From positions 1 through 42,466 of the IMG/VR virus record IMGVR_UViG_3300037245_000476: 42,466 nucleotides of DNA; one strand, written 5' to 3'. Of the stretch, positions 17,115 to 42,341 are shown piece by piece; the first letter of the stretch is position 1; every line of letters begins with the position of its first letter. The notes beneath the pieces are model-generated. The model saw only the letters and a list, made by a program, of their open reading frames with translations, was not told the origin of the DNA and made no database searches. The DNA is from a virus. The position numbers and the translations under genes are program-made.

Positions 17115-17879
17115 ATGCTATACAAAGGTGATTGCTTACAAGAAATGAAACAAATCCCTGACGGCTCCGTGGATATGGTTATGACAGACCCACCCTACGG
17201 CACTACTGCCTGTAAATGGGACGCCATCATCCCCCTAGAGCCGATGTGGGAGCAGTTGAAGCGGGTTATTAAGCCTAACGGTGCTATTGTTATGACAGCC
17301 AGCCAGCCGTTTACTACCACCCTTATAGCGTCTAATATGAAGATGTTTAAGTATTGCTGGGTGTGGGAAAAGACGATCGCTGCCAATTTCTTTAACGCAA
17401 AAAACAAACCTCTTCAAAAGCACGAAGATATAGCCGTATTCTCATCCGGTACCGTGGCAAACTGTAGCGATCGAAGAATGCCATATTACCCACAAGGCTT
17501 AATTGAGACTAATAAACGCTGGTCAAGGCCGAAAAAATACCCAAGTGAGCATAAAATGGTCAGAAAAAGCCATAGTCTCGATCGCGTTATTAAGTTTTCC
17601 AATTACCCATCCAGCATCCAAAAGATCTCAAACGGAAATAATAAGTCAGTCCATCCCACCCAAAAACCAGTAGCCCTAATGGAATACCTTATCAAAACAT
17701 ACACCAACGAAGGCGAGACTGTTCTGGACTTTACAATGGGAAGCGGGACTACAGGGGTTGCTTGCGTAAACCTCAACCGTCAATTCATTGGCATTGAAAA
17801 AGACGATAAATACTACGAGATCGCAAAGAAGCGGATTCAAGAAGCAGAGGACGCTTGCGGTTTATTTAATAAAAGTTAG
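17115..17879 (+). CDS. DNA adenine-type methyltransferase (DPPY)
   Basis: A 254-residue N6_N4 methyltransferase of beta-type order: catalytic DPPY at 25-28 first, the SAM-binding FTMGSGTTG near residue 205 last. VHPTQKP (about 180), just before the SAM site, is also typical. It would methylate phage DNA to evade restriction. No cognate endonuclease gene is adjacent, so it is an orphan enzyme. TATAGGAG precedes it. Confidence 0.9.
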   Translation: MLYKGDCLQEMKQIPDGSVDMVMTDPPYGTTACKWDAIIPLEPMWEQLKRVIKPNGAIVMTASQPFTTTLIASNMKMFKYCWVWEKTIAANFFNAKNKPLQKHEDIAVFSSGTVANCSDRRMPYYPQGLIETNKRWSRPKKYPSEHKMVRKSHSLDRVIKFSNYPSSIQKISNGNNKSVHPTQKPVALMEYLIKTYTNEGETVLDFTMGSGTTGVACVNLNRQFIGIEKDDKYYEIAKKRIQEAEDACGLFNKS

Positions 17880-18038: not shown

Positions 18039-18746
18039 ATGCCACAAGGAAGAATAGTGCTCAAATCAATATGCCAAAGTAAGAAATTATCCCAACTCAA
18101 AACAGATGGAGCAAGGCTTCTTTACACTTGGTTGCTCCCGAATGTTGATATAAATGGTTGCTTTTCTGGTGACGAATATGTTATCAATGGGCAGATACTT
18201 TCAAGGCTTAAAAAAACAATCCCTACAATCACCGGATACCTCCAAGACCTGCACGATAAAGAGTTAATTATTTGGTACGAAGCTGACAACGATAAATTCC
18301 TTTGTATACCAGACTTCGCCACTAAACAACCAAGCTTAAACCCCTCTAAAGAAGCAAAATCAACGATTCCTATGCCTAGTCCAGAGTTACTCCAGACCTA
18401 CTCCGGACTTACTCCGCCTAAAGCGAAGGAAAGCGAAGCGAACGAAAGCGAAGGAAAGGGAAGAAAAAGCGAAGTAAAGGACGGTTCGTCTTTTTCCTCA
18501 ACTGATCGTTCTTCGGTCGTTTCGGATGAGTCTAAATTCCACTTACGGTCTATTGATTTATTTGGATGTGCAAAGAATGGCGACAAGACAACACTGAAAA
18601 GGATTGCAGAACATTTATCGAAATCACTAGATGAGGAAGTTTTTGACAAGGCATGGAGGGTCGCGCAAGAATGCAAGAAGAAGGGTTCTAATCCAATAGC
18701 CCTGTTTATATCAAGAATGAAAGATGAATTTAATTATAGGAAATGA
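18039..18746 (+). CDS. DnaD-like phage replication initiator / replisome organiser
   Basis: A 235-residue protein. Residues ~1-100 form a winged-helix domain like phage replisome organiser N-terminal domains (LKTDGARLLYTWLLPNVDIN, GYLQDLHDKELIIWYEADN, FLCIPDFATKQPSLNP). A low-complexity linker follows (about 125-148, ESEANESEGKGRKSE). A helical C-terminal domain (about 180-233) could recruit the helicase. The linker-coding DNA holds iteron-like repeats, the arrangement used by lambda O. The ribosome site is AGGTGAT. Confidence 0.7.
   Translation: MPQGRIVLKSICQSKKLSQLKTDGARLLYTWLLPNVDINGCFSGDEYVINGQILSRLKKTIPTITGYLQDLHDKELIIWYEADNDKFLCIPDFATKQPSLNPSKEAKSTIPMPSPELLQTYSGLTPPKAKESEANESEGKGRKSEVKDGSSFSSTDRSSVVSDESKFHLRSIDLFGCAKNGDKTTLKRIAEHLSKSLDEEVFDKAWRVAQECKKKGSNPIALFISRMKDEFNYRK
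18388..18475 (+). repeat. Iteron-like repeats inside the initiator gene (candidate origin)
   Basis: TACTCC repeats at exactly 11-nt spacing (18388, 18399, 18410), about one helical turn apart. They are followed by a purine-rich tract with five GCGAA units (18423, 18433, 18438, 18448, 18469). They encode the disordered linker, so the coding constraint is low. Phage origins often lie within the initiator gene. No DnaA box was identified. Confidence 0.45.
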
Positions 18747-18795
18747 AATGCTAGACATTAAAGACATAACAAACACAATAATACAAGGTGATTGC
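18694..18795 (+). repeat. Direct repeat, copy 1 (initiator end / methyltransferase start)
   Basis: About 102 bp nearly identical to 19754-19856. It covers the last codons of the initiator gene, the ribosome site and the first ~16 codons of the 18748 methyltransferase. See copy 2. Confidence 0.85.
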
Positions 18796-19740
18796 ATTGA
18801 AACAATGCGAACATTCCCTGCAAAGTCGATAAACTGCTGTGTTACCTCACCGCCTTATTGGGGCTTGCGTGATTACGGCGTTGATGGTCAGTTAGGGCTT
18901 GAAGATACCCCAGAAGAATTTGTTTCCAAGATGGTTGCTGTCTTCGCCGAGGTCAAGCGGGTATTGCGGGATGATGGTACTTTGTGGTTGAATCTGGGGG
19001 ATAGTTACGCTCATAACACAAAAGGTGATACTCGTACAAAAGAAGATTATATACGGCAAGGTGCGACTGTTGGCGCGTTGCTGTCGGGTGCGCAAAACGC
19101 TGGTGGAGTTCGGAAATGCAATCACGGCGTAAAAGTCAAAGACCTCGTAGGTATCCCGTGGATGGTAGCCTTTGCCTTACGTAAAGATGGCTGGTATCTC
19201 CGTCAGGACATTATCTGGCACAAGCCCAACCCAATGCCCGAAAGCGTCAAAGACCGATGTACGAAGGCGCATGAGTATATTTTCCTGCTGAGTAAGAATA
19301 AGAAGTATTATTATGATGCTGATGCTATACGGGAGGACTTCACAGACGATAGGATGGGAAACCCAAAGGGAGGTGGTCAGTATGCCAAAGAAGCGTTTAA
19401 AGATGTATTTGGCCCAAACGCACAGTCTGGTCTGCAAAAGGGCGAGTGGAACGCAGACGGATCTGTTACGGGTCGCAACAAACGCTCAGTATGGACAGTA
19501 ACAACTAAGCCCTACTCCGAAGCCCATTTCGCTACATTCCCGCCAGACCTCATAGAACCCTGTATTCTAGCAGGTTGTCCTGCAGACGGTATCGTACTAG
19601 ACCCGTTCATGGGAAGTGGCACAACAGCGATGGTGGCTTATGAGAACAACAGGAATTATGTAGGGTGTGAACTTAACCCGGAATATATTGAATTAAATAG
19701 AGCAGATATTGCCAAAGAAAAGTATGGATTGTTTGAATGA
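18748..19740 (+). CDS. DNA N4/N6 methyltransferase with SPPYW motif
   Basis: A 330-residue methyltransferase. The catalytic motif is SPPYWGLRDYG (about 35-45), typical of m4C enzymes, and the SAM motif LDPFMGSGTT lies near residue 290. In between are WLNLGDSYAHN and the target region. ATG 18748 with TAGGAAATGA is preferred over the ATG at 18724, which lies in the initiator gene. The N-terminal ~16 residues are shared with the next methyltransferase through a DNA duplication. Probably an anti-restriction enzyme. Confidence 0.88.
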   Translation: MLDIKDITNTIIQGDCIETMRTFPAKSINCCVTSPPYWGLRDYGVDGQLGLEDTPEEFVSKMVAVFAEVKRVLRDDGTLWLNLGDSYAHNTKGDTRTKEDYIRQGATVGALLSGAQNAGGVRKCNHGVKVKDLVGIPWMVAFALRKDGWYLRQDIIWHKPNPMPESVKDRCTKAHEYIFLLSKNKKYYYDADAIREDFTDDRMGNPKGGGQYAKEAFKDVFGPNAQSGLQKGEWNADGSVTGRNKRSVWTVTTKPYSEAHFATFPPDLIEPCILAGCPADGIVLDPFMGSGTTAMVAYENNRNYVGCELNPEYIELNRADIAKEKYGLFE

Positions 19741-21071: not shown

Positions 21072-21458
21072 ATGTATAGAGGTAAAAGAATAGACGGCGA
21101 AGGTTGGGTTTATGGGTATCACTCTAAAACATCTTTCCGGTTTGATGAAGACTCAGAATGGGAAACTCACGATGTAATAGTAGAGATATATGAAGGCAGG
21201 TCGTTTGATTACTTCGTCCACCCCTCCTCTGTCGGGCAGTGGACAGGGCTTAAGGATAAGAATGGGGTGGAAATTTACACTGGTGATATACTTGACTTTG
21301 ATTTATCTGAATGGGGCGGTACATTTGATCCCGAAGAAATAACTCTTGAGGGTTTAATTGGTTCGTGGGATTTCTGTGGAAGCAAAAGCGACGTATCTGA
21401 ATGGCGACAGGTCATAGGCAACACCACCGGCAACCCAGAATTATTAACCCAGACTTGA
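21072..21458 (+). CDS. YopX family protein
   Basis: A 128-residue YopX protein with the full pattern: YRGKRIDGEGWVYGYHS (2-18), VHPSSVGQWTGLKDKNGVEI (about 50-69), YTGDILDFD and the end VIGNTTGNPELL. Function unknown; widespread in phages and prophages. Its last codons overlap the -35 box of the promoter at 21455. AAAGGAG precedes it. Confidence 0.85.
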   Translation: MYRGKRIDGEGWVYGYHSKTSFRFDEDSEWETHDVIVEIYEGRSFDYFVHPSSVGQWTGLKDKNGVEIYTGDILDFDLSEWGGTFDPEEITLEGLIGSWDFCGSKSDVSEWRQVIGNTTGNPELLTQT

Positions 21459-22536: not shown

Positions 22537-22867
22537 AGAATTGAAAGCGTGTCCTTGTGGCGGGAAGATGGAATTACTAAACGACCAGCGACATATGAAG
22601 CAAAGCAAGGCTAAGGGTAAGGCGGATAAGTATGAAGACGAACTTGAGAAATGTACACAATTACTAAACAAATACTGGCCGGAAAGCATGTCCTGTAATG
22701 GCTATCTGCAAGTAGCTGGACACCTTAAAAATATACTAACCCGCCAGCCTGAGCAAGAGTTGGTGGATGCGTTGGAGGTAATATGCGGGACTACCTGCGT
22801 AGACGGGTACAGTAAGGTTATTGAAATAGCAGATAAGGCACTCGCTAAATACAAGGAGAAGATATAA
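22526..22867 (+). CDS. Hypothetical protein with N-terminal CPCGG motif
   Basis: A 113-residue protein. The start ELKACPCGGKMELL resembles the zinc knuckle of Lar-like restriction alleviation proteins (LKPCPFCGG), but the remaining C-terminal cysteines of that family are absent. The rest is helical (DKYEDELEKCTQLLNKYW, VIEIADKALAKYKEK). AAAGGAG precedes ATG 22526. It may be a fusion of a short knuckle with an unrelated helical domain. Confidence 0.5.
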   Translation: MADKELKACPCGGKMELLNDQRHMKQSKAKGKADKYEDELEKCTQLLNKYWPESMSCNGYLQVAGHLKNILTRQPEQELVDALEVICGTTCVDGYSKVIEIADKALAKYKEKI

Positions 22868-23352
22868 TGGCACTTAAGAAATCAAGTAAACTCAAATCCC
22901 AGAAGTCCCGCAAGGCGTGGGAGATGGTACGGGCAGGAACCGACTACAAGACTATCGGAATCGAAGTAGGCTACACCGCTACCGCTATCAAGCTCTTTGC
23001 TGTGCGTAAGTACAAGGACGAATCAGAGAAGCTATGGGCTGCGGAGATCAAGGCGATAGGGCATTGCGAGATATGCCTAAAGAATATCGAGTTGAACGCC
23101 CACCACCTCTTGCCGAAGTCTATCTGGACAAACCTTGACCGTGACCTGAGCAATGGAATCTGCCTTTGTACAGACCATCACACTATGAACCCTCAGATAT
23201 CACCACATAACAACATTGCCTCCGGCGAAGAGTTCCTTAAATGGCTTGAGGAATACCGACCTGGACAATTCGCTTGGTACAACGAACACAAGCTCGACCG
23301 GAAGTATATCGGTAATGACTATGAACTAGCGTATAACACACTTAAGGAGTAA
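22867..23352 (+). CDS. HNH endonuclease with N-terminal HTH
   Basis: A 161-residue protein. Residues ~15-50 look like a helix-turn-helix (AWEMVRAGTDYKTIGIEVGY). The HNH core has CEIC (67-70), NAHHLLPKSIW with His79 and His80, and CLCTDHHTMNPQ with Cys99/101 and His104/105, i.e. a zinc-supported HNH. It is a free-standing nuclease, possibly homing or recombination-related. The start is coupled to the previous stop (TAATG). Confidence 0.75.
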   Translation: MALKKSSKLKSQKSRKAWEMVRAGTDYKTIGIEVGYTATAIKLFAVRKYKDESEKLWAAEIKAIGHCEICLKNIELNAHHLLPKSIWTNLDRDLSNGICLCTDHHTMNPQISPHNNIASGEEFLKWLEEYRPGQFAWYNEHKLDRKYIGNDYELAYNTLKE

Positions 23353-24592: not shown

Positions 24593-24739
24593 ATGAGTTT
24601 ATTTAGCCCAGACGAAGTATGTGAAACCTGCATCCATGCAGAATTCCATGATTGTTGTAAGACTTTTTGCAACTGTAAAGAAGACCATGAGATAAATGGC
24701 ATAACAGGAACTTGTGAATACATGGAGGAAAGATCGTGA
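24593..24739 (+). CDS. Cys-rich protein, 48 aa
   Basis: A 48-codon ORF with a Cys/His cluster (CETCIHAEFHDCCKTFCNC) and an acidic tail. Eight cysteines suggest a metal cluster. GAAAGGAAG lies upstream. The next gene's GTG overlaps its stop. Confidence 0.5.
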   Translation: MSLFSPDEVCETCIHAEFHDCCKTFCNCKEDHEINGITGTCEYMEERS

Positions 24740-25023
24740 AACACCTCCTCCTCTCCCTCGCTACCCTATGGCTGTGCGGGTGTGCCTTACATGAATCGAA
24801 AGAGACGCTTACCGTACAAAGCCCTACAGCTACCGTTAAATACGAAAGCAAGGTTTGGGGCGGGTCAGTGCTATCTTTCTTCAAAGTCCGGCAGGTGAGC
24901 AAGACAGGCCCACTGAGCGAGTTGTTTATAGGCGATATGGAGGGTAAGCCAGACCCGAACAGTATAAATGAAGTAAGTGGCGGGATTGTCCCGCTGTTAA
25001 TTAAAGGTTTAACGAAAGGATAG
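24736..25023 (+). CDS. Phage lipoprotein
   Basis: A 95-residue protein with a signal peptide, MKHLLLSLATLWLCGC, and lipobox LCGC (13-16), so it should be lipidated at Cys16. The mature part is about 80 residues, beta-rich (TLTVQSPTATVKYESKVWGG) with no second membrane span. The start is GTG in a GTGA overlap. Candidates are a superinfection-exclusion lipoprotein or an outer spanin. I see no inner-spanin gene beside it, so exclusion is at least as likely. Confidence 0.7.
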   Translation: MKHLLLSLATLWLCGCALHESKETLTVQSPTATVKYESKVWGGSVLSFFKVRQVSKTGPLSELFIGDMEGKPDPNSINEVSGGIVPLLIKGLTKG

Positions 25024-25030
25024 AAGAATT

Positions 25031-25507
25031 ATGGATAACATTAACACAAATGAAACAGCTAGACCCCCGAAGCAAAGGTATATCGGAGTAAAGATTGTTC
25101 TGGCAGATCTGATGAAGTTAGGTGCTTTTAATCACTTTGAAAATCGCAATATGTCGGGTGATCAAAAAGCGGATGGCTACCGTGTCGAATACGAGAACGG
25201 TTGTCGGTCATGGATGCCGAAAGAACAGTTCGAGCCTGGCAATCAACTTTGTGACGCTATGCTATTTGGCCATGCCATCGAAGTAATGAAGTTGGATAAG
25301 AAGGTTGCTCGGAGCGAGTTTGCGAAAGGCACGTACATACGGCTTATTGACCCGTACAGCAATGACCAGTATACCGTTACAGAAAAGGACGGCATGGACG
25401 GAACGCTTTATCCTTACTTCGTAATAAAAACGACCGAAAAGGGACTCGTGCCGTGGGTTCCCACAGACAGCGATATGCTCGCCAAAGACTGGCAGATCGT
25501 AGAATAG
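25031..25507 (+). CDS. Tad2-like (DUF2829) anti-Thoeris candidate fused to a phage N-terminal domain
   Basis: A 158-residue two-domain protein. Residues ~15-69 match a common phage module (YIGVKIVLADLM ... ADGYRVEYENGCRSWMPKEQF). Residues ~72-158 fit DUF2829/Tad2: CDAMLFGHAIEVMKLDKKVAR, GTYIRLIDP, YPYFVIKTTEKGLVPWVPT and DMLAKDWQIVE. Tad2 proteins sequester the cyclic ADP-ribose-type signal of Thoeris immunity and related signals. The domain pair is seen directly; the anti-defence role is inferred from the family. Confidence 0.75.
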   Translation: MDNINTNETARPPKQRYIGVKIVLADLMKLGAFNHFENRNMSGDQKADGYRVEYENGCRSWMPKEQFEPGNQLCDAMLFGHAIEVMKLDKKVARSEFAKGTYIRLIDPYSNDQYTVTEKDGMDGTLYPYFVIKTTEKGLVPWVPTDSDMLAKDWQIVE

Positions 25508-25586: not shown

Positions 25587-25766
25587 ATGGCAAAGAAGCT
25601 CAAAAAGAAACTTAAAAGAACTGGCGTATGGCACGCGCATGGACTAACCCAAGCCAAGTGCCCTTACTGTAAGAAATGGGGTACTGTGCTTATGATGGTT
25701 CTAGGTGGCGAAGTTCTGGAGTGTGGTTTATGTAGAGAAGAGTTTGTACTATCCGAAAGGAGATGA
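25587..25766 (+). CDS. Zinc-ribbon protein, 59 aa
   Basis: A 59-codon ORF: basic start MAKKLKKKLKR, then CPYCKKWG and CGLCREEF knuckles about 23 residues apart, a standard zinc ribbon. TAAGGAG is upstream. Confidence 0.55.
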   Translation: MAKKLKKKLKRTGVWHAHGLTQAKCPYCKKWGTVLMMVLGGEVLECGLCREEFVLSERR

Positions 25767-25768
25767 TA

Positions 25769-26167
25769 ATGGAAGTCACTGGCAAAGTATGCGGCGGGTG
25801 CGGCGTTCTTAAAGCTTTCAAAGATATGGTTAGGAACTCGCGGTGTAGTCATGGGTGCGAAGGGACATGTAAGGTCTGCCGTGATACTAAGTCTAAACCA
25901 CAGTGGCAGCGCAGGGATAGAGCGAGAACAGAGCGAAACAGGGCAGAAAGGAAAATAAAAGACGACCTCTGGGAAGAAACGGTGCAGCTTGAGATAGACT
26001 ATTATGCTAAGCAGGTGGCCGTGATGAGACATGACTTAAGCCCGGCTCTAACGCCGGGGAATGTGATATTGTACTTAAAGGAATGTAATGGTAATCCATC
26101 CAATGATGTACAGAGAAGGCACTTGCACTTCTTGCACTGCCACGACCGACGAATGTTACGATACTGA
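25769..26167 (+). CDS. Zinc-finger protein resembling endonuclease VII N-terminus
   Basis: A 132-residue protein. VCGGCGVLKAFKDM (8-21) and CEGTCKVCRDTK (about 30-41) form a zinc site like that at the start of phage endonuclease VII / HNH proteins, followed by a very basic stretch (PQWQRRDRARTERNRAERK). The catalytic part of those enzymes is not evident. AAAGGAG favours ATG 25769 over 25763. The 3' end overlaps the next ORF by 80 nt. Confidence 0.5.
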   Translation: MEVTGKVCGGCGVLKAFKDMVRNSRCSHGCEGTCKVCRDTKSKPQWQRRDRARTERNRAERKIKDDLWEETVQLEIDYYAKQVAVMRHDLSPALTPGNVILYLKECNGNPSNDVQRRHLHFLHCHDRRMLRY

Positions 26168-40991: not shown

Positions 40992-42341
40992 TTAACGAGC
41001 CGCCAGAGTTACGAAGCTGGACAGGGTTTTATCACTGTGCTTCGGAGTCAATGCGGTCTTTTCCCACGGCTTACCATCCATACGGACAATGAACCTGAAC
41101 GCTGTCTGATCGGATACAAACTTCAAGTGAATACTGGAAGCTGCTCTAATCTGGCCGCCGTTCTTTTCGCCGACAAGGTACTGTCCCCAATCTGCGAGGG
41201 TGATATCACCCTTATCGCCGAGCGTCTGGTTGTGTTCGGAGAAGAAGATAGGACGCCCGAGGAGGGTAGTGATAGGGCTACCAGTAACGCCGTTGGTACT
41301 TGTCTGCATCAAGCCAGCCGAAGAACCGCCTGTGCCAACAGGAAGAGCTAGGGTAGCGATGGCAACAAACGCATCGATATTAGCCTGCCATATAGCAGAA
41401 CTCTGACCAGCAGGTCGTAGACGCGACCACATCTTGAGGATGTTTTTCGTTACGATGGTATCTGCGGCCTGCCCGGACTCTTTAGCGACAGTAACGAGAC
41501 TTGGTGCATTCAAGATACCCAGAGACTGATTTGCTCCGTTACCGTTCATCAGGTCTTCGTCGATCTGGAATCCTATAGCGTCACCGAAGCCCTTATTGAG
41601 CATTGGCTCAATCGAGATCGGAGAATCTTCAAGCAGTTCGCTTGTAGCGAATACCAGACAAGCAAGCTTGGATAGTTCCAGGTTGACCTTGCCGAGTTTC
41701 ATCTTACTGGCCGTAATGTCGCCGCCTTCGTCTGGACGGTAAACAATAATACCACCATAAACATGGAGGGCATGGCTTTCGTCTTCGATTACCGGGATTC
41801 CGACTGCGTTAGTCATCATTGGAATCTTCATCGTTCGAGGATAAGCAATAGATGTTTCAAGCAGATTCGACATCAGCGTATTACGCTGCATTGTCGGAAC
41901 CAGGAACCCACCTTCGGAATCAATGCCTTCGTTCTGACCCGATGGAGCTTTTGAGACCTGGTTGATCCAGTTGCTCATCTTTTCAGTGAATGTACCACTG
42001 GCAGACTTGCGGCATTCAATTGCGAAATCTCCCATGCAACTAAACCCGCCTGTTTTGAGAAAGTCGTCTTCGTTGTCCTGCTGGATTTGGAAGTCGGCGT
42101 TCTGCTTAAGGATTTCGTTGATAATTTCCTTCTTAAGCTCGTCCCTTAATTCCTTGTTACCTGCGTCTGGATTGAATTCGTCTACTTTGACGATGTCGCC
42201 TGCCTTTGCGATATACATTTCGCAAATATCTTTTCCTACAAGGCTTTTTGCGGCATCTTCATCAAGCTCTAATAGGCGGCCTTTTGCCCACTTGATACCA
42301 TCGTTTTCCCACTCTTTTAAGAGTCTTATTTGTACTTTCAT
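40992..42341 (-). CDS. Major capsid protein, HK97 fold
   Basis: A 449-residue protein. Residues ~1-135 are an N-terminal scaffold/delta region: a small domain (VQIRLLKEWENDG, RLLELDEDAAKSLVGKDI), then a charged helix (KELRDELKKEIINEILKQN). The mature HK97 core starts near GGFLVPT (144-150) and includes VFATSELLEDSPISIEPMLN and NGNGANQSLGIL. The protease encoded just upstream should remove the N-terminus. ATG 42341 lies two bases inside the terminal repeat, which holds its AAGGAAACC site. Confidence 0.93.
   Translation of the reverse strand: MKVQIRLLKEWENDGIKWAKGRLLELDEDAAKSLVGKDICEMYIAKAGDIVKVDEFNPDAGNKELRDELKKEIINEILKQNADFQIQQDNEDDFLKTGGFSCMGDFAIECRKSASGTFTEKMSNWINQVSKAPSGQNEGIDSEGGFLVPTMQRNTLMSNLLETSIAYPRTMKIPMMTNAVGIPVIEDESHALHVYGGIIVYRPDEGGDITASKMKLGKVNLELSKLACLVFATSELLEDSPISIEPMLNKGFGDAIGFQIDEDLMNGNGANQSLGILNAPSLVTVAKESGQAADTIVTKNILKMWSRLRPAGQSSAIWQANIDAFVAIATLALPVGTGGSSAGLMQTSTNGVTGSPITTLLGRPIFFSEHNQTLGDKGDITLADWGQYLVGEKNGGQIRAASSIHLKFVSDQTAFRFIVRMDGKPWEKTALTPKHSDKTLSSFVTLAAR

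Follow-up and report, generated by a model that had tools for sequence, protein, structure and literature searches.

A Tad2-like phage protein with an altered beta1-beta2 loop and an N-terminal module shared with antagonists of nucleotide immune signals

The gene at 25031-25507 and its surroundings

The window, 42,466 bases of a tailed phage from an IMG/VR record, carries on the plus strand an open reading frame at positions 25031-25507, which starts with ATG, spans these coordinates exactly with the stop codon included and encodes a protein of 158 amino acids. Seven bases separate its start from the stop of the preceding gene, and a ribosome-binding-like AAAGGA, read from the sequence, lies 10 bases before the ATG (25015-25020, +). 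The protein belongs to the phrog_872 / N4 gp49-like family and has two parts. Residues 15-76 (25073-25258, +; YIGVK...DGYRVEY..GCRSWMPKEQF) form a small, beta-rich N-terminal module, here called the N-module, which has no Pfam family. Residues 77-157 (25259-25501, +) form a Tad2-like domain, PF11195, identified with Pfam and Foldseek. Two stretches of this second domain are of particular concern below: SEFAKGT at residues 95-101 (25313-25333, +), which stands in place of the beta1-beta2 loop xGWNGKGM and is one residue shorter, and PWVPTDSDMLAKDW at residues 141-154 (25451-25492, +), the conserved beta4/alpha3 signature of Tad2.

The gene sits in a run of small genes on the same strand, with a YopX-like reading frame (21072-21458), an HNH endonuclease-like reading frame (22867-23352) and an endonuclease VII-like reading frame (25763-26167) nearby and DNA methyltransferase-like reading frames farther upstream. 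From about 26.4 kb on, the genes lie on the opposite strand, tail and head genes among them. Such surroundings suggest an accessory gene region. Immediately before the fusion gene, positions 24736-25023 (+) encode a small predicted lipoprotein-like product with a lipobox-type start, LWLCGC, for which no match was obtained in Pfam or PHROG. In the DNA methyltransferase family phrog_67, one region is matched by two separate reading frames, at 17115-17879 and 18724-19740 (+), which suggests, from the sequence, two related methyltransferases near each other, and short tandem-repeat arrays with periods of 10-15 are found at 18380-18479 (+), just upstream of the second. At the other end of the window, the major head protein (40992-42341, -) has its closest matches in Streptomyces phage Dagobah, with 42% identity across 70% of the query, and in a Bradyrhizobium phage; for the terminase, the nearer phages are those of other hosts.

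The Tad2-like domain and its altered loop

The initial annotation had recognised a DUF2829/Tad2 pattern in the C-terminal half from its PW...DMLAKDW ending, and this was borne out by profile, sequence and fold comparisons. PF11195 was matched over its full profile (1-73 of 73) with 71.9 bits and an E value of 6.6e-20; since the curated cut-off of this family is 25 bits, the match is not due to chance. The family signature PW..(S/T)..D.LA.DW is present as PWVPTDSDMLAKDW, and a sequence search of solved structures recovered ModTad2 and SPO1 Tad2. The AlphaFold2 model of the whole protein, built from 46 aligned sequences, had a mean pLDDT of 89.3 and a pTM of 0.80. When this predicted model was submitted to Foldseek, 23 Tad2-family PDB chains ranked first with a probability of 1.00 (E 2.8e-5 to 2.2e-3, target TM-score 0.60-0.84), and these included structures of SPO1 Tad2 with gcADPR, ModTad2 with hisADPR, and HgmTad2/AcrIIA7. 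Because the HMM, the sequence search of solved structures and the predicted fold agree, the Tad2 assignment is secure at the level of family and fold. In the window protein, PF11195 was the only family found by Pfam, and the domains that define Acb4 (PF13876), Tad1 and RyDEP (PF02026) were absent; NCBIfam and PADLOC searches returned nothing. An internal duplication, with the N-module as a second Tad2, was considered and rejected, as hhalign found no similarity in either direction.

SPO1 Tad2, ModTad2, HgmTad2/AcrIIA7 and SptTad2 share the C-terminal domain with the window protein by sequence and predicted fold, but these characterised chains are about 90-100 amino acids long, lack the N-module and differ from the window protein in the beta1-beta2 loop. 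Where the family has xGWNGKGM, the window protein has SEFAKGT (aligned as SEF-AKGT). GWNGK is present in the solved SPO1, Mod and Spt Tad2 and is invariant or nearly so in the relatives; among 154 family members covering the site, 152 have the loop tryptophan, the exceptions being the window protein and one divergent sequence, L269. In Tad2, the beta1-beta2 loop of both protomers lines the gcADPR pocket (review, PMC12043709). By our reading of the model and the alignments, GWNGK is probably this pocket-lining loop.

Given this change in the loop, the window protein may bind another ligand than the characterised Tad2 proteins do, or bind more weakly, and since the GWNGK stretch is both replaced and shortened, the pocket could even be non-functional. 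In the last case, the Tad2-like domain would have lost signal binding and the protein would now do another job, for example scaffolding of oligomers or another kind of counter-defence. The near-uniqueness of the missing tryptophan is in favour of this, as is the divergence of the window copy in both domains, the N-module departing from the family at about 10 conserved positions. Against it, the rest of the Tad2 core is kept, including PW..(S/T)..D.LA.DW and R94, the reading frame is uninterrupted and the fold is predicted with confidence, and we consider a complete loss of binding unlikely. Thus, where the loss of ligand-pocket residues had been named as an argument against the Tad2 assignment, the outcome was divided: the pocket-adjacent loop, nearly invariant elsewhere, is lost, and the beta4/alpha3 signature is retained. 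The window protein is most likely a sponge whose pocket has changed or become weaker, and it could serve as a naturally occurring test case for the question of whether Tad2 owes its ligand choice to the GWNGK loop.

The N-terminal module and its partners

The N-module motif quoted in the initial annotation (GVKIV...DGYRVEY..GCRSWMPKE) occupies residues 19-65 and is a conserved feature of the family. Modelled alone, the N-module reached a pLDDT of 95.9. A sequence search against solved structures gave no credible match, and none of the PDB folds matched its model significantly: the top-ranked fold was the RNA-polymerase-interacting domain of Mfd, with a TM-score of 0.58 by query length and an E value of 1.0, and the UvrD Tudor domain and SH3 domains, also on the list, were not significant either. 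By profile comparison, the N-module showed no similarity to the beta-sheet of Tad1, nor to Acb4, Tad2 or crAss001_48. It is a mobile domain. Although it had been described as usually a separate phage protein or domain, it is nearly always fused to another domain and only occasionally separate.

Its partners were identified by searching viral and bacterial contigs with alignments of the N-module only and reading out Pfam domains on 115 non-redundant proteins. Tad2-like domains were found in 63 of these, crAss001_48 in 31, PF13876 in 25, the Acb2_Tad1 hairpin in three and WDGH in one; an earlier search with the N-module gave the same partners. The Tad1 fusions fall into three different groups, all confirmed against solved Tad1 (E 2.7e-16, 3.3e-34 and 2e-12), and the type with E 2.7e-16 was found in 30 further contigs. 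A fusion of the N-module to an RyR domain (PF02026, E 1.9e-10) also recurs in other phages. Triple fusions of N-module, crAss001_48 and Tad2 occur, and there is one of N-module, PF13876 and Tad2. An example of the former is a single protein of 297 residues (L030, 3998-4888) with N-module, Tad2 and crAss001_48; the latter, in a Clostridia genome bin (L364, 5025-5732), joins PF13876 (the Acb4 family) and Tad2, two sponge-family domains, in one protein with the N-module. A further N-module protein, of 160 residues (L351, 1110-1589), carries the letters WDGH at its C-terminus and gave no match to Tad2, Tad1, PF13876 or crAss001_48. It probably accounts for the one PF25311 WDGH protein among the 115, and its C-terminal part is another candidate partner.

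The characterised partners act on nucleotide signals. Tad1 and Tad2 act as sponges that take up gcADPR and other signals (PMC12043709, review), PF13876 is the Acb4 family of cyclic-dinucleotide sponges, several members of which have unexplained extensions (PMC11722364, preprint), and RyDEP, the phage proteins with PF02026, break down or sequester 2'/3'cADPR (PMC13232231, preprint). The Acb4, Tad1 and RyDEP families thus all antagonise nucleotide immune signals and have members with the N-module of the window protein, but their effector domains are unrelated to it and none is present in the window protein, so that only the N-module is common. Tad1, Tad2, PF13876 and crAss001_48 likewise showed no similarity to each other in the pairs tested. 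Since the same module caps Tad2, Tad1, Acb4-family and RyR-domain proteins, we infer from the partner list itself that the N-module belongs to a class of nucleotide-signal counter-defence proteins.

crAss001_48 (PF21825) shares the N-module with the window protein, but is a helical-looking, uncharacterised domain absent from it. No solved relative of crAss001_48 was found, and the idea that it is an Acb2/Tad1-type hairpin was abandoned, as it showed no similarity to the Tad1 alignment. By analogy, because the four characterised partner families all neutralise nucleotide immune signals, crAss001_48 is the strongest candidate for a new signal antagonist. A more general proposal, which we make tentatively and hold to fall just short of probable, is that the N-module is a general tag of signal neutralisers, to which it would give some property in common, for instance assembly or tethering, and that crAss001_48 is an unrecognised sponge or degrading family. 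For this family, which is common in gut phages and includes crAss-like phages, the prediction is a specific one. Sponges have mostly been discovered singly, through screens; a recurrent domain marking four independent antagonist families provides a sequence handle for finding more, and the N-module may help to locate immune-signal blockers so far unrecognised. In the part of the literature covered, neither the module-wide association nor the altered loop was found described, and specialists may already know of the association.

On balance, we favour as reasonably probable that the gene at 25031-25507 is an accessory gene for a counter-defence sponge, in which the Tad2 half sequesters a signal and the N-module is a shared accessory domain. 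The Tad2-like domain would oligomerise, as a tetramer by inference, and capture a cADPR isomer, His-ADPR or a cyclic dinucleotide as the nucleotide immune signal, which would keep a host defence based on TIR or CD-NTase proteins from being activated. The N-module of about 60 residues, attached by phages to the unrelated antagonist families Tad2, Tad1, Acb4/PF13876 and RyR/RyDEP, would add a common property, for example stability, localisation, assembly of a higher order or one more contact; it would probably not be the source of ligand specificity, in which the partners differ.

The fusion had been expected to reveal the function of the partner or a second captured ligand. It did prove informative on the partner, through the Tad1, Acb4-family and RyR-domain proteins that carry the same module, and capture of a second ligand found no support. 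An N-module that itself binds or processes a second immune signal, making the fusion a two-ligand antagonist, would fit its strongly conserved motifs (GY.V.Y.DGY.SWSP), which look functional, and its joining to antagonist families with different ligands. But the occurrence of the same N-module on different sponges argues for a generic role, the profile comparisons gave it no homology to known sponges, no fold matched its model significantly and it rarely stands alone. We regard such a two-ligand protein as improbable and retain the single sponge with an accessory N-module as the preferred interpretation.

Distribution and naming of the two-domain family

The initial annotation was correct that the Tad2-like half is fused to another phage domain, as the fusion of N-module and Tad2 is genuine; it is not rare, and the two-domain family is already known. 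An initial scan of viral sequences with only the window protein as query found no relative, and no relative above about 40% identity to it was found. phrog_872 was matched along its full length (positions 3-172 of 172, E 4.7e-30). The architecture is that of phrog_872, and 80 of 50,697 phage records have one place that covers at least 80% of the query; in IMG/VR, relatives are encoded on at least 465 stretches. The 80 records include N4 (gp49), the P22-like phages IME10, Louie and Kapi1, and phiAH14a. The phrog_872 / N4 gp49 proteins and similar DUF2829 two-domain proteins have the same full-length architecture as the window protein, but are only about 30-40% identical to it and have the GWNGK loop that it lacks; the N-module of the window protein is also without an insertion of about 10 residues that many of them have between the DG and SWSP strands. 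No two-domain Tad2 relative was found reported as assayed in the literature covered.

Several relatives are annotated as DUF2829, 'anti-CRISPR' or hypothetical. As a solved Tad2 homologue bears the anti-CRISPR name AcrIIA7, the function cannot be read from the fold alone. An anti-CRISPR role of the window protein would accord with the label 'anti-CRISPR protein' on relatives in phages Louie, Huey and Mimir124 and with the Tad2 fold of AcrIIA7 (8kbi, 9kzr), which has only this fold and a weak sequence match in common with the window protein. We think this role very improbable: the labels appear to have been propagated by annotation transfer, in the PDB the family is also listed under HgmTad2 with 1',2'-cADPR bound (8kbj), and the mechanistic Tad2 literature concerns nucleotide signals (PMC12043709). 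A virion or decoration protein, as suggested by the label 'putative capsid decoration protein, phage N4 gp49-like' on a standalone N-module relative in phage Possum and by a decoration-protein note on a longer N-module protein of phage DT01, is hardly credible either, given that the Tad2 domain matches soluble sponges, that the N-module profile found no decoration protein among solved chains and that the genomic position of the relatives varies, often far from head genes. The gene has lysis genes in its vicinity in the P22-like phages, adjoins the virion RNA polymerase gene in N4 and lies between head genes in phiAH14a, and this variation between phages fits an accessory gene.
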